The position numbers and the translations under genes are program-made. DNA of 33,825 bases from IMG/VR virus record IMGVR_UViG_3300025138_000169, positions 1 to 33,825 of that record; one strand, written 5' to 3'. The notes under the pieces are model-generated. The model made no database searches. It saw nothing but the letters and a program-made list of their open reading frames with translations, and was not told where the DNA came from. Shown piece by piece: positions 25,732-33,104 of the stretch; the first letter of the stretch is position 1, and each line of letters starts with the position of its first letter. Origin of the DNA: a virus.

Positions 25732-25886
25732 TTCTTTTGTTCCATTTCTAGTATCTGTACATACTCATTCAATCTGTCTATTTCTTTTGCTTGTATAAGA
25801 TTATCTCGTTTGTAATCTTTTAATAGAGCGGCACATTTATTTAACCGCTCCATTAATTTACTTATATCGTTTGATTCGTTATCCAT
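25728..25886 (-). CDS. Short coiled-coil protein (52 aa)
   Basis: The 52-aa frame reads MDNESNDISKLMERLNKCAA, then LLKDYKRDNLIQAKEIDRLN and a further helical turn ending MEQKK. It shows heptad-like Leu/Ile spacing over its whole length, suggesting a coiled coil. It fills exactly the space between SSB (TAATG overlap) and the LexA-like gene (ATGA overlap), which is good evidence that it is real. Function is unknown. It might be a small partner of SSB or of the regulator. Confidence 0.62.
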   Translation of the reverse strand: MDNESNDISKLMERLNKCAALLKDYKRDNLIQAKEIDRLNEYVQILEMEQKK

Positions 25887-26296
25887 TAGAAAGGTACATC
25901 TTCGTTTGTTTCATTCTCATAGGTCTTATCGCTACCAAAATCATCCATCTCATTCTGAGATGATTTTGATTCGCTCTTAGAGTCTAACATTTCCATCTTA
26001 CTTTCAAACCGATCAAGATGCACTTCAGCTTGTTTCATTTGTATGCCCTCTTTCTCCCATGTTTTATATGTCAATCTTCCTTGCAATAATACTTTGCTTC
26101 CTTTCCTAGTATATTTCTGTAGTACTTCTGCAATCTTCTCATCCCATACAACAACCTTATGCCACTCAGTAAGTTTCTCTCCTTTGATTTTCTTATGTGT
26201 CGCAATACTAAGGAGAGCATAATTGCCCCCCTTAGAAGTTTGTTTAATATCAGGATCAGCACCAAGATTTCCTATTAGTGTGATACTATTGTACAT
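25886..26296 (-). CDS. ssb: Single-stranded DNA-binding protein
   Basis: The 136-aa OB-fold protein has SITLIGNLGADPDIK, YALLSIATHKKI, TEWHKVVVWDEKIAEVLQKY, and KGSKVLLQGRLTYKTWEKEG, and ends with an acidic tail finishing DVPF. That tail is the SSB protein-interaction tip. It coats ssDNA in replication and annealing. I choose the ATG at 26296, which sits five to eight bases after GGAGGAG. An ATG 15 bases further upstream overlaps this ribosome-binding site and is less likely. It overlaps the end of the annealing-protein candidate by 11 nt, coupling the two. Confidence 0.93.
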   Translation of the reverse strand: MYNSITLIGNLGADPDIKQTSKGGNYALLSIATHKKIKGEKLTEWHKVVVWDEKIAEVLQKYTRKGSKVLLQGRLTYKTWEKEGIQMKQAEVHLDRFESKMEMLDSKSESKSSQNEMDDFGSDKTYENETNEDVPF

Positions 26297-26906
26297 TCTT
26301 CTCTCCTCCATTAGTTAGTTCATGTAGTCTTGTTTCATATAAAGTTTTTGTTTGTAGATAAACTGCAGGACTTGTCTGCTTTGCTTTACCCATATGTACT
26401 TTATACATTTGTCCATATGCTTTTAACTCTTTAAGATTCTTGCTAGAGTTAATCTCTCCTTGGAATGTTTCTAACTTTGTATCATCACTAGCACCTACAT
26501 TATTTGTTGGTCTAGTATTAGAAGATAAATCCATTTCATCTTCTGAATATACAAAGCCATGCATACCAAGTAGTTTTAAGATTGCTCTATCAACTGCTCT
26601 TTTCTCAGCCATAGCATAAGGATAGGAATTTTTATTATTCTTAGGACTTGCTTCTCCATAGGTAATAACTTTTTCCTCACTCCCATTTACTCCGATTGAT
26701 GCTCTACATTTAATACAAACTATTCCATCTCTTGAATTAGTTTCTATCTCCTCTAGGTCATATCGTATTTTATTTTTTGCACCAGCGATCTCAATAAATC
26801 TATGATACATTACCCAAGTTCCATGACAATCCCATAAGCACTGCTTAGGATCAAAGCCAAGTTTCTTTAGGATTTGTTTTACTCTTTCGTCTAGTGGTTT
26901 AGCCAT
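26286..26906 (-). CDS. Probable single-strand annealing/recombination protein (206 aa)
   Basis: The 206-aa protein contains the conserved segment FGEA-like YGEASPKNNKNSYPYAMAEK, then RAVDRAILKLLGMHGF and VYSEDEMD. I recognise this from phage proteins grouped near ERF/Rad52-type annealing proteins. The context is strong: it lies between a YqaJ-type exonuclease and SSB, the usual exonuclease-annealase-SSB set. It would pair complementary single strands for recombination-dependent replication or concatemer formation. Cysteines at C19, C25 and a C-x2-C pair (IVCIKC) are also visible. The family assignment is inference, and a replication accessory protein is the alternative. Confidence 0.68.
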   Translation of the reverse strand: MAKPLDERVKQILKKLGFDPKQCLWDCHGTWVMYHRFIEIAGAKNKIRYDLEEIETNSRDGIVCIKCRASIGVNGSEEKVITYGEASPKNNKNSYPYAMAEKRAVDRAILKLLGMHGFVYSEDEMDLSSNTRPTNNVGASDDTKLETFQGEINSSKNLKELKAYGQMYKVHMGKAKQTSPAVYLQTKTLYETRLHELTNGGEKNVQ

Positions 26907-27769: not shown

Positions 27770-28159
27770 TTATTTGTTATACTCTTTTTGTTTCCATTGT
27801 TCAAGCTTATAAAATGTATGTGTTATTTTTCTAAGCCATCCTAAATGGTATTCGTATGGTGCATCTAGTCTATCGGTAAATTCTACTGGTAGTGGTAATC
27901 TTGCATACTTATATTTAATTAATATATCTTCCATACAATCTTTAAGTAAGGATGCAGGGTACTTCTGAAGTATTCTAAAGTATTGTTCTAACCCTGTTTC
28001 ATTTGGTATATTAATTGAAAAGGTACTAGCAATAGTTTCTAATACAACTGCAATATCTTTTCTAGTACATGGTTGAATACAGTTAGCCATGCGATTAATA
28101 ATATTAGGTGCATCACTATCTATCGTACTTGATGGTACGAATGTTTTGTCTTTGCCCAT
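27770..28159 (-). CDS. Probable replication protein, helicase-loader-like (129 aa)
   Basis: The frame is open to 28372, but the upstream part lies inside another gene. The ATG at 28159, after AAGG, gives a 129-aa protein with a 44-nt overlap. It contains IINRMANCIQPCTRKDIAVV, then LEQYFRILQKYPASLLKDCM and KYARLPLPVEFTDRLD. The KYPAxxLKDCMEDILIKYKY...LPxxxEF pattern occurs in phage replication proteins that act like lambda P or replisome organisers, as I remember them. The O-like gene next to it supports a pair recruiting the host DnaB helicase, since no phage helicase is encoded. This is inference from pattern and context. Confidence 0.6.
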   Translation of the reverse strand: MGKDKTFVPSSTIDSDAPNIINRMANCIQPCTRKDIAVVLETIASTFSINIPNETGLEQYFRILQKYPASLLKDCMEDILIKYKYARLPLPVEFTDRLDAPYEYHLGWLRKITHTFYKLEQWKQKEYNK

Positions 28160-28655
28160 CAGATACCTTATCTCCCATACTCGCAACATCACTGATTCTT
28201 TTGCGTCTTTCTTGAACAGCATTGGAATCATATGGACTGTTGAATGTTTTAGTTTGTCTTCTAGTGTTTGCAAACTGGATTGATCTTCTAATCCAGTTTC
28301 TAAAACAAGCATCCCAGTCTGCTTTAACATCTCCATTTGCTTTGTAATGATCTGTGAATTTTTCTTTTTCATAGTTTATATCTACCTCACTTCCATGATT
28401 GTTAATGATATAGTCAATACATTGTGGACTTGGTTCGTATTCTCCAACCATTGACTTGTGTTCTAGTAATGCAACATTCATATCTAATGCATTACACCAA
28501 TTCAAAAAGTTAGATGCATTTGGTATTTGCTTTAGACTCTCCCACTTATTAATGAGAGAGTCAGCAACACCAACTTTTTCTGCAAGTGCAGTAGCATCTA
28601 TCCTAAGATATTGTCTGCGTAACTTCAGATGATTGATGATCTGATTGTACAACAT
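28116..28655 (-). CDS. HTH protein with DnaT/O-like C-terminus, candidate replication initiator
   Basis: The 179-aa protein has an N-terminal helix-turn-helix (about 18-66: IDATALAEKVGVADSLINKW, then IPNASNFLNWCNALDMN). Its C-terminal half includes FTDHYKANGDVKADWDACFR followed by NWIRR (100-124), the DWxxxxRNWxRR motif seen in primosomal DnaT-like and phage O-like replication proteins. The ATG at 28655 has a very good GGAGGA four bases upstream. A DNA-binding head joined to a replisome-recruiting tail suggests an origin-binding initiator, by analogy with lambda O. It overlaps both neighbours (53 and 44 nt). I found no convincing iteron set. Confidence 0.68.
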   Translation of the reverse strand: MLYNQIINHLKLRRQYLRIDATALAEKVGVADSLINKWESLKQIPNASNFLNWCNALDMNVALLEHKSMVGEYEPSPQCIDYIINNHGSEVDINYEKEKFTDHYKANGDVKADWDACFRNWIRRSIQFANTRRQTKTFNSPYDSNAVQERRKRISDVASMGDKVSDGQRQNIRTIKYDR

Positions 28656-29879: not shown

Positions 29880-30074
29880 CTAACTTATTTTGATAATGAG
29901 TTTAGCATTATCGTTTTTCTCTTTGGGAAATTCTATTGAGATAGATTCTAAACTTCTATAGGTTCTATCTTTAGCATCATCCCAATGATTACCACTAAAT
30001 TCGACATCAGCTTTACTATCAATTCTGTTTAGAGTTTGTAGTATAAACTTGAAGTCATCACTATTTACTTTCAT
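29880..30074 (-). CDS. Small hypothetical protein (64 aa)
   Basis: The 64-aa protein reads MKVNSDDFKFILQTLNRIDS, then KADVEFSGNHWDDAKDRTYR and a C-terminal strand SISIEFPKEKNDNAKLIIKI. It is charged and soluble, with no known motif. The ATG is in TAATG overlap with the end of the ArdC-like gene, and the AGGTTG-like ribosome-binding site is weak, so it is probably translated by coupling to that gene. A functional link to ArdC is possible but unsupported. Confidence 0.58.
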   Translation of the reverse strand: MKVNSDDFKFILQTLNRIDSKADVEFSGNHWDDAKDRTYRSLESISIEFPKEKNDNAKLIIKIS

Positions 30075-30955
30075 TACGCAACCTCCTTGATTACATTTGT
30101 TGTTGATTGTAAATTCTTACAGAAGTCTAATGACTTACTTGCAAGACTTGATGCTTTCCAAATAGCATCTTCGTTTTCTTCTAAACACTTGATCCAGTTA
30201 TTAAGATACATAGCATGGTCTTCTCTTGGAGAAGAAGTTATGTTTAGATGACTAGCAATAAAACATGATCCAAGTTCTGCAACTAATTCTTCGAATGCAT
30301 ATCCACTTGAACCAAACTTTGTTGATAGTTTTCTATCGCATCTATCCTTATGACCTGTCCAATGGGTCAGCTCATGAAACATAGTGCAATAGTAGTTTTC
30401 TGTAGCGGTACTGTGTTGTGTATTGATAAAAGATTCTTTGCTTGGCATACGAATCTCATCAATGCTTGGTATATAACAAGCTTTACCACTACGAGAAATC
30501 TTTGCTCCTGTATTATTTATAAATACATCAGCAGTATTATTGTCATTGACTTTGTTTTCGAATGTATCAAAGCCGACAAACTTTTCTGTATTACCCTCTA
30601 CTTGTTCTATATTAAATACATCAAAGGTTCTAAACAACTGAAACATTTGTTCTTTTGTTTCTCCTTTTCTTTCTACTTCTTTAATGTATTTCTTTATGAA
30701 CAATAACTTTGTAGATGATTCTCCTTTCTTAACTTGACATCCATGTCTAGTCCATTGCTTGTATGTACCCCAAACATATCTGTCATATGGTTCAAATGCT
30801 AACTGCATAATGTTACCGCCAGTATATTTGTAACCATCTACTGAAGTGAATAGTTTATTAGCCCAAGGTTTAGTCCATTGACTACCTTGTTCTTTCATTA
30901 ACTTCAGTATGTTTTTTGTAATGCTATGGACTACATCTTTTGCTTTGCCTTGCAT
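30074..30955 (-). CDS. ArdC-like antirestriction protein with zincin domain
   Basis: The 293-aa protein matches ArdC. The N-terminal ssDNA-binding domain (about 1-130) has ITKNILKLMKEQGSQWTKPW, NIMQLAF, RYVWGTYKQW and VKKGESSTKLLF. The C-terminal zinc metallopeptidase-like domain has H194-E-L-T-H198 in MFHELTHWTGH and a downstream glutamate (FEELVAELGS, 221-230). ArdC proteins protect incoming DNA from restriction in plasmids and occur in many phages. The zinc site is intact, so protein cleavage is possible. It lies early in the leftward operon, where a first-minutes defence gene would be expected. Confidence 0.9.
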   Translation of the reverse strand: MQGKAKDVVHSITKNILKLMKEQGSQWTKPWANKLFTSVDGYKYTGGNIMQLAFEPYDRYVWGTYKQWTRHGCQVKKGESSTKLLFIKKYIKEVERKGETKEQMFQLFRTFDVFNIEQVEGNTEKFVGFDTFENKVNDNNTADVFINNTGAKISRSGKACYIPSIDEIRMPSKESFINTQHSTATENYYCTMFHELTHWTGHKDRCDRKLSTKFGSSGYAFEELVAELGSCFIASHLNITSSPREDHAMYLNNWIKCLEENEDAIWKASSLASKSLDFCKNLQSTTNVIKEVA

Positions 30956-31938: not shown

Positions 31939-32373
31939 TTAAGCTATCTTTTTCAATAACTCTTCAGCTTCATTAACAGCAGATGTCTTCTTAACATCCT
32001 CAGGGTTTGGCTTTCTTACACTTGGTGTGTAAGCCATACCAAATCTGTTCTTGTAGAATTCTTTAGCTGTATCTAAGAAATTCTCAGTAATAGCTACCTG
32101 TTCTTGGAGCTGTCTTACTGCAAATGTATCTTTCTGAATAGCTACATCTTCTATCTCAGAACCTGAGAATTGTCTTACTCTACCTTTTAATCTTGCACCT
32201 ATTTCGTGCTGTAGATTCAAGGCAGATTTACAAGCTATTTCAGAACCTCTTATGATATTCTGTACCGATCCTTTTTCTGCGGTATAACTCTCAGCTTGTG
32301 GTGTTTCCGACAACTCTAACCCTTTGAAGTGGTCAGCTATGATGCCGAATGCTTTTTCTAGTTTGTTACTCAT
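31939..32373 (-). CDS. First leftward (early) gene, unknown protein (144 aa)
   Basis: The 144-aa protein begins MSNKLEKAFGIIADHFKGLE, with SVQNIIRGSEIACKSALNLQ, ARLKGRVRQFSGSEIEDVAI and ENFLDTAKEFYKNRFGMAYT, and ends EELLKKIA. It appears fully helical with a single cysteine and no known domain. AAAGGAG sits well before the ATG. It is the gene closest to the control region and is bracketed by the structured element upstream (32411-32530) and a hairpin terminator downstream. It may therefore be made first and separately from the rest. Candidates for such a role include a host-takeover factor or a virion-core protein, and neither is supported by sequence. Confidence 0.7.
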   Translation of the reverse strand: MSNKLEKAFGIIADHFKGLELSETPQAESYTAEKGSVQNIIRGSEIACKSALNLQHEIGARLKGRVRQFSGSEIEDVAIQKDTFAVRQLQEQVAITENFLDTAKEFYKNRFGMAYTPSVRKPNPEDVKKTSAVNEAEELLKKIA

Positions 32374-32410
32374 GGTCTTCTCCTTTTGTTGTTAGTTTAA
32401 CTCCAAGATG

Positions 32411-32530
32411 ACAAAAAACCTCCAGCAAATGGAAGTCCACTGTTAAATTGGGGGGAACCTACTTCAGGGGGAACCGATTTAATAGTTGACAGCACCTTTA
32501 GGTGCGATTCCATTTCTGAGAGGTTTTATC
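32411..32530 (-). ncRNA. Predicted structured RNA / attenuator in the control region
   Basis: The minus-strand transcript would fold into one long interrupted stem. Outer pairs are 32415-32422 with 32520-32527, 32423-32425 with 32516-32518, and a perfect 8-bp AAATGGAA/TTCCATTT (32427-32434 with 32508-32515). A further 14-position stem (32435-32448 with 32477-32490, two non-Watson-Crick positions) and a side hairpin (32492-32496 with 32501-32505, loop of four) create a three-way junction. The apical loop contains GGGGGAACC twice (32451, 32467). A promoter ends just upstream (32564-32536), and the closing stem is followed by six U. Read leftward this is either a self-contained RNA of about 115-120 nt or an attenuator in front of the first early gene. 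One stem pairs slightly better as plus-strand RNA (G-U), so orientation is not certain. No known RNA family is asserted. Confidence 0.55.
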
Positions 32531-32535
32531 TTGGG

Positions 32536-32564
32536 AGTATAAACTACACAAAAGGAGGGGTCAT
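32536..32564 (-). promoter_or_regulatory. Leftward sigma70-like promoter for the structured RNA/early operon
   Basis: On the minus strand, ATGACC (32564-32559, 4/6 to TTGACA) and TATACT (32541-32536, 5/6 to TATAAT) are 17 bp apart. The predicted start is A at about 32529, exactly at the 5' arm of the structured RNA. The weak -35 may need an activator. Confidence 0.55.
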
Positions 32565-32601
32565 AGAGTAACTAGAACAAAGCAGTTCGTTACATCATGC
32601 G

Positions 32602-32619
32602 ACCACTACATGTTGTGGT
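32602..32619. promoter_or_regulatory. Palindromic operator candidate
   Basis: ACCACTACATGTTGTGGT is an 18-bp near-perfect palindrome (only positions 6 and 13 break it) lying 13 bases upstream of the -35 box of the rightward promoter. The size and symmetry suit a dimeric HTH protein. The phage encodes an XRE-type regulator (28949-29254), a LexA-like one (25480-25731) and an HTH initiator candidate (28116-28655). Which protein binds here is unknown. Confidence 0.5.
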
Positions 32620-32632
32620 TGATGTTGGTGTC

Positions 32633-32662
32633 TTGACACAAGCTGGTGTTATACGCTATACT
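32633..32662 (+). promoter_or_regulatory. Rightward sigma70-like promoter for the late operon
   Basis: A perfect TTGACA (32633-32638) is followed after 18 bp by TATACT (32657-32662, 5/6). The start should be near 32669, giving a leader of about 34 nt before the small terminase ATG. The -35 box is part of an inverted repeat GTGTC-TT-GACAC (32628-32639), a likely repressor site. This is the best promoter seen in the window and fits use of host RNA polymerase. Confidence 0.7.
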
Positions 32663-32702
32663 ACCGATAGGTACCAACCAATACCATAAGAGGTAAATAG
32701 CT

Positions 32703-33104
32703 ATGTCAAAGATACTTGAAAGATACCAGCCAAAGGGCAATCCGAAAGCTGATATCTCAGCCAAAGCTAAGAAGCTTGTAGATACTCTAGTAGCCACAGG
32801 ATGTACCATTACAGAAGCATCAAAACTCGCTGGTTACAAGGGTAATTCATCTCGTGTTAGTGCTAGTAAGATGCTACGAAAACCTGAGGTACAGGCATAC
32901 ATGATGTCTGAGATTCAGCGAAGTTTCGGATTGTCTTCAGCCAAAGCATCAGCACGACTCCTATCCCTTTCTCAGGGGGCTAAGAGTGAGTATGTACAGC
33001 TTGAAGCTAGTAAAGACATACTCGATAGGGCTGGGTTCAAAGCCCCTGAGAAACACCAACACCTTGTCGGTGGTAACTTCTCCATTAACATAGACTTATC
33101 GTAG
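32703..33104 (+). CDS. terS: Probable terminase small subunit
   Basis: The 133-aa protein has an N-terminal helix-turn-helix (about 23-50: KKLVDTLVATGCTITEASKL, AGYKGNSSRVSASKML), then KPEVQAYMMSEIQRSFG. A predicted oligomerisation helix with YVQLEASKDILDRAGFKAPE completes it. This combination of HTH, LEA-K-ILDRAG and a C-terminal tail is common in phage small terminases, which bind the packaging site and load the large subunit. AGAGG precedes the ATG. It is the first gene of the rightward operon and lies before terL on the circular map. The gene is visibly richer in G+C (about 42-52% in sampled lines) than the rest of the genome. Confidence 0.75.
   Translation: MSKILERYQPKGNPKADISAKAKKLVDTLVATGCTITEASKLAGYKGNSSRVSASKMLRKPEVQAYMMSEIQRSFGLSSAKASARLLSLSQGAKSEYVQLEASKDILDRAGFKAPEKHQHLVGGNFSINIDLS

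Follow-up and report, generated by a model that had tools for sequence, protein, structure and literature searches.

The long hairpin situated upstream of the small terminase subunit gene (terS) in a marine (SAR11-type) tailed phage is best explained as an Frpo-like single-stranded DNA (ssDNA) promoter of the phage early operon and possibly also as a primer site. This assignment is made by analogy, and we regard it as moderately probable. In conjugative plasmids Frpo is an ssDNA hairpin which rebuilds −35 and −10 boxes before the genes of SSB, ArdA, and other anti-defence proteins (PMC11541004, PMC9849209; Masai & Arai 1997 cited there). For the phage the conclusion is drawn from the presence of the same apical motif before leftward ArdA genes in bacteria, the anatomy and strand polarity shared with an IncF plasmid region, the outward-reading −35/−10 pairs of the stems, and the leftward gene block with ArdC and SSB. 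The wider statement is that in a widespread marine family of double-stranded DNA phages early gene expression starts from folded ssDNA, as in conjugative plasmids, by means of a hairpin promoter that has grown to a quasi-palindrome of 0.5–1.1 kb with co-evolving arms in two unrelated coding regions; it is put forward tentatively, at somewhat less than an even chance.

The window, i.e., the whole stretch of 33,825 nucleotides that was analysed, is a 33.8-kb virus record. Its genome carries virion genes in addition to terS and terL and is that of a tailed phage. The nearest cultured relative found was Pelagibacter phage EXVC031P Hodr, with identities to the window of 80% for terS and 87% for terL.

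The core hairpin

The hairpin at positions 32352–32584 is real and far exceeds chance expectation. When folded as DNA, this interval reached −54.3 kcal/mol (z −11.3) on the plus strand, which serves as template for the leftward gene, and −50.5 kcal/mol (z −10.2) on the minus strand. When positions 32390–32570 were folded as RNA, the values were −56.3 kcal/mol (z −5.6) for the minus strand and −67.4 kcal/mol (z −6.25) for the plus strand, with no shuffled sequence equalling either. Folding better than that of shuffled sequence, a check named in an earlier sequence-only reading, was thus found for both strands in both types of folding, and the parts described there, namely, nested repeats, a side hairpin, the repeated GGGGGAACC, a minus-strand −10 box with a 17-nt spacer, and a run of six U, are all present in the sequence.

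In the DNA fold the plus strand forms a long bulged stem with a three-way junction and an apical loop. The AAATGGAA/TTCCATTT inverted repeat is present in the sequence. The apex is occupied by the conserved motif TTGGGGGGAACC-TACTTC-AGGGGGAACCGA (32448–32477, plus), which is common to phage relatives and 14 bacterial loci and includes two copies of GGGGGAACC (32451–32459 and 32467–32475, plus). On the right (non-template) arm the outward-reading TTGACA (32486–32491, plus) is a candidate −35 box of the hairpin promoter, predicted from the sequence. Directly behind it the side hairpin GCACC-TTTA-GGTGC (32492–32505, plus) is inserted on the right arm only, and 18 nt past the side hairpin TTTTAT (32524–32529, plus) is a weak candidate for the −10 box. 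The left (template) arm contains a 5-nt bulge of the DNA fold near the candidate −10 (32410–32414, plus) and, on the minus strand, a T6 run at about 32412–32417. The Shine-Dalgarno sequence AAGGAG of the left gene (32380–32388, minus) is also enclosed in the palindrome, and arm alignment places its mirror copy AAAAGGAGGGG, followed by a mirror of the start region, at 32550–32560 (plus).

Hairpins of related phages

A hairpin with z < −4 was found at the same place upstream of terS in 87 of 106 non-redundant relative loci, and nearly all of the inspected loci have it flanked by terS on one side and by a divergent leftward gene on the other. The sequences of the hairpins at this place are mostly unrelated; for example, in loci L008 and L014 the left gene shares 92% identity with that of the window, while the core is swapped for another sequence, which folds again. 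The apical motif is present in some phages only, most cores having other apices, and blastn searches of the locus against phages and plasmids, as well as of the apex motif, returned nothing useful. Across the loci bulges of 4–9 nt are distributed unequally between the arms (45 on the left and 22 on the right), and at 40–75 nt from the apex they were found in 23 and 9 loci, respectively. The DNA mini-hairpin GCGAAGC was observed in the relatives' cores 15 times on the plus strand against once on the minus strand, with 1.4 occurrences in shuffles, and the census of UUCG, GNRA, and GNA loops in the cores was too small to tell RNA from DNA.

The apical motif in bacteria

Hairpins tipped by the window's apical motif (TTGGGGGGAACC..AGGGGGAACCGA) were also found in bacteria, at 14 loci, each with a different stem. 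The motif search with two mismatches allowed gave nine further copies in 988 genomes or records, the five starting genomes included, and a reversed control pattern gave no copies in every genome searched. Copies are located in L266 (714–738), L268 (3488–3512), L269 (5815–5839), L270 (6071–6095), and L281–L289, their hosts range from Planctomycetota to Rhodobacteraceae, and five copies belong to one Gemmataceae genome. The recurring form of the bacterial cap is TTGGGGG-N-R-ACC-TTYA-GGGGGA-R-CC. These loci are on MAG contigs, whose conjugative nature would be an assumption.

In all 14 bacterial loci a Shine-Dalgarno-led gene runs leftward from the hairpin. The distance from the gene start to the apex is 82–130 nt in 13 of the 14 loci and 116–130 nt in 10 of them, which may be compared with a median of 110 nt in phages and 95 nt in the window. 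ArdA is encoded at no fewer than five of these loci (Pfam, above the curated cut-off), and the L288 gene resembles by eye that of L287, a sixth ArdA-like gene; three other loci encode a related long protein, by eye of methylase/helicase type, and one has a VbhA antitoxin-like gene before a Fic gene, also by eye. ArdA anti-restriction genes are typical of the leading regions of conjugative plasmids. ArdA of L269 is followed by a ParB_N gene, just as ssb of the IncF plasmid is followed by a ParB gene. The template strand is the more stable one in 13 of the 14 loci, and an extended palindrome was found in two of them, reaching to about 410 and 370 nt in L266 and to about 290 nt in L268. The bacterial relatives of the apex suggest a DNA-level promoter element that is read leftward.

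The leftward early operon and its promoters

The left gene (31939–32373, minus), the first of the leftward early operon, encodes a 144-aa helical protein. In the window this protein had no Pfam or PHROG match, and its counterparts in relatives gave insignificant PHROG matches only; its AlphaFold model (mean pLDDT 86) has a helical fold for which no PDB match was found. The leftward gene block includes SSB and an ArdC-type anti-restriction protein (30074–30955, minus; PF08401 ArdcN 72.7 bits, PF18818 145.4 bits, phrog_7245); the gene at 25886–26311 (minus) was assigned to phrog_44 with E 4e-31. An HTH protein at 28116–28655 (minus) showed a weak match to the DnaT DNA-binding domain (22.3 bits, the Pfam cut-off being 25), and by this similarity it is a possible replication-loader protein. 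On the other side terS (32703–33104, plus; phrog_51, phrog_2538) has its 5′ end at the outer edge of the palindrome's right arm.

The only conserved consensus promoter of the region is the rightward sigma-70 promoter of terS, TTGACA-18-TATACT (32633–32662, plus; 11/12 match), which lies downstream of the hairpin and is kept in the relatives and in Hodr. In positions 32100–32800 three promoter-like sites were observed, compared with 1.2 in shuffles. No leftward −10 box was conserved upstream of the left gene among 78 loci, and the early operon is therefore one with no recognisable ordinary promoter. Outward −35/−10 pairs are modestly enriched in the family stems relative to shuffles (p 0.006–0.008), while inward pairs of the right arm are not (p 0.57). 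Good examples of outward pairs are TTGTTA-16-TATATT in Hodr and TTGACA-16-TAAATT in L058; the pair of the window is poor, consisting of TTGACA, the side hairpin, and a weak −10.

According to the proposed mechanism the plus strand, when single-stranded, would fold into the long hairpin, the duplex stem of which would act as a promoter directed away from the apex, its non-template strand being the right arm. Host RNA polymerase would then enter the early operon in the leftward direction and transcribe the left gene, ArdC, and SSB. Like Frpo, the hairpin may in addition serve to prime synthesis of the complementary strand. We infer ssDNA to be the template and, likewise, the exact −35/−10 boxes and the start site. 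The plus strand is also presumed to become single-stranded early, for instance, during replication or by 5′ resection of an end lying rightward of it, the latter of which would expose exactly this strand. Since tailed phages inject double-stranded DNA, the single-stranded stage is an assumption.

The extended quasi-palindrome

The core hairpin is the tip of a quasi-palindrome of about 500 bp (about 32215–32720, both arms) with the apex near 32468. It begins in the left gene, of which it takes in the 5′ third, and continues through the hairpin and the promoter of terS to the start of that gene. The further pairing outside the stem noticed in the sequence-only reading proved to be real, being only the beginning of arms which reach about 253 nt on each side. 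The arms extend 34–253 nt to the left and 39–252 nt to the right of the apex with a score of 121.5 against 25 for a distal control, and the palindrome is unique in the genome (arm score 62 against the next best 29 among 1,345 positions scanned). The pairing passes through the Shine-Dalgarno sequence and the start codon of the left gene, with the mirror AAAAGGAGGGGTCATAGAGTAAC on the opposite arm. The palindrome of Hodr is longer than 1 kb (575 nt on one side and 512 nt on the other), in L032 it measures about 390 nt on each side, and in the outgroup phages MEP301, BcepC6B, and Ss1 it is absent.

The arms match their own partners with scores of 70–160, compared with about 20–45 against the partner arm of a distant or unrelated phage, and because of this excess they are concluded to co-evolve within each phage. 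The match is composed of short blocks, mostly of 4–10 nt, between bulges of 1–3 nt. Column-wise covariation of the outer arms in close pairs is near to a few-fold above chance, from which it follows that the co-evolution is slow or proceeds via shifting registers; the conservation of paired synonymous sites is little above the null. The co-evolving arms lie in the coding sequences of two unrelated genes in different reading frames, as observed in the window at 32215–32720, in L254 around 12300, and in L020, L021, L028, and L032. The codons of the invariant YT of the left protein (YT.EKG, near residues 30–35, alignment A1) face the −10 region of the promoter of terS, so that the terS −10 box and a motif of the left protein share sequence in the palindrome. 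A palindrome of 0.5–1.1 kb exceeds what a promoter needs, and the Frpo-like reading leaves the extension of 250–570 nt into coding sequence unaccounted for.

Alternative explanations

Another DNA-level role, that of an origin, a primosome-assembly site, or a pac-type signal by terS instead of a promoter, is rather unlikely. It would agree with the fixed place of the element beside terS between divergent operons and with the early proteins, which include the weak DnaT-like domain, SSB, and recombination genes, while no DNA polymerase was identified among the scanned genes. However, in one search no terS was found at the bacterial loci with the same apex, where the element instead precedes ArdA and similar genes at the promoter-like spacing of 82–130 nt, and no iteron arrays were found near the phage element.

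A structured RNA was the proposal of the sequence-only reading, in which the element was described as a leftward RNA of 115–120 nt, possibly an attenuator, having a promoter of its own and an intrinsic terminator or, alternatively, as a plus-strand RNA; as a leftward RNA, attenuator, or terminator of this kind, or as a plus-strand small RNA, it is now improbable. The strong folding of both strands, the minus-strand TATACT/ATGACC with the U6 tract, and the position of the Shine-Dalgarno sequence in the stem speak for such an RNA. Nevertheless, the minus-strand promoter is weak (TATACT and ATGACC 17 nt apart, 9/12 match), and its −10 and −35 boxes are confined to the close relatives of the window. 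The U-run of the supposed terminator is present in the window, but relatives including Hodr and L032 lack it, as judged by eye. The search of Rfam, including the IMES families named earlier, by covariance models at gathering and permissive thresholds gave no relevant match for the hairpin.

The strand polarity opposes a minus-strand RNA as well. In the inner stem the wobble pairs that are G-U on the plus strand outnumber those that are A-C on it by about 30:6 in the window-like set and by 93:46 in all loci, and a leftward RNA is disfavoured for this reason. The plus strand is the more stable one in 78% of phage loci compared with 61% of background windows; after correction for composition the family-wide polarity is weak (45 of 87 loci have the lower z on the plus strand), and it is therefore considered as support rather than proof. 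A plus-strand RNA comes closer to these data than the leftward one, but no conserved rightward promoter was found to the left of the hairpin in the relatives compared, and the bacterial apices point to a DNA-level element. What stands of the earlier proposal is a conserved structured element with compensatory replacement of the stem in relatives, which probably controls the leftward early operon.

Similarly low is the probability that the palindrome is mainly a mutational product, in which the hairpin stalls replication, template switches homogenise the arms, and the palindrome spreads with no function. That template switching creates and preserves hairpins is established (PMC8794818), as is its homogenising effect on the arms of inverted repeats in coding genes (PMC8604942), and both the co-evolution of the arms within each phage and the lack of strand preference of wobble pairs in the outer arms (252:211) are consistent with it. 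On the other hand, among 465 multi-base mutation clusters between relatives only one distinct cluster matched the opposite arm, which had itself also changed, and the recurrence of unrelated cores at one place, together with the bacterial ArdA loci, is left unaccounted for. Template switching could account for the outer arms. It is very improbable that the element insulates the divergent operons from each other or terminates transcription in both directions, as the A- and T-tracts on both sides of the window stem are lost by eye in relatives such as Hodr, L032, and L028, the element is far larger than a terminator, and no termination is needed at the site since the flanking operons diverge.

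Significance and comparison with known systems

If the Frpo-like promoter reading is right, this would be the first hairpin ssDNA promoter in a double-stranded DNA phage, the single-strand promoters described so far being those of conjugative plasmids. Part of a tailed-phage genome would then be read while single-stranded, and phage early expression would be linked to the anti-defence strategy of plasmid leading regions. The apical motif found across phages and bacteria can be used as a search handle for anti-defence or leading-region genes. The giant quasi-palindrome with co-evolving arms is an unusual genome constraint, and how selection and replication errors interact in it can be tested directly in the cultured Hodr.

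The closest counterparts are Frpo1 and Frpo2 (ssi) of F and related plasmids. Deletion of Frpo leads to the loss of early expression, and Frpo2 was reported upstream of ssb on an IncF plasmid (PMC9849209). The plasmid comparison consisted of one IncF locus, used as a positive control (L274), where the region upstream of ssb contains a quasi-palindrome that is unique in the stretch (score 42 against the next 25) and folds more stably on the template strand (−127.5 against −107.1 kcal/mol); the window shares this anatomy and strand polarity. Like Frpo, the phage element has a long bulged template-strand stem before early genes, and the stems of the family hold outward −35/−10-like pairs, which are good in Hodr and L058. 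Frpo drives SSB and anti-restriction genes, and the phage leftward block holds ArdC and SSB, but its first gene has no Pfam match. Unlike Frpo, the element of the window belongs to a tailed double-stranded DNA phage and lies beside terS rather than oriT, an oriT-adjacent leading-region location not being expected in such a genome; its palindrome is also much longer and enters two coding regions, and the window has a three-way junction. The phage core gave no blastn match among 72,556 plasmid records, and in the literature searched no paper on Frpo in phages was found. As sequence similarity to plasmid Frpo was thus not found, we do not file the element as a member of Frpo, and its function is proposed by analogy.

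The bacterial MAG hairpins (L266–L270, L281–L289) share with the window the apical motif TTGGGGG..AACC..AGGGGGA.CC, the orientation to the leftward gene, and a similar distance to it, but differ in stem sequences and in the genes driven. The promoters of the phage N4 virion RNA polymerase are small ssDNA hairpins of 5–7 bp served by its own injected polymerase. The promoter proposed here would likewise be formed from folded ssDNA in a phage, whereas its hairpin is not small and no such injected polymerase was seen in the window phage. Long inverted repeats overlapping coding sequence are also found in the mitochondria of Nematomorpha, where the coding palindromes are perfect repeats inside single genes (PMC6649704), while those of the phages are imperfect, extend across two divergent genes, and occupy one site. 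Finally, the marine IMES RNAs resemble the element in their stable hairpin and marine origin, but besides the lack of an Rfam match the evidence from strand, promoter, and neighbouring genes favours an element acting at the DNA level.
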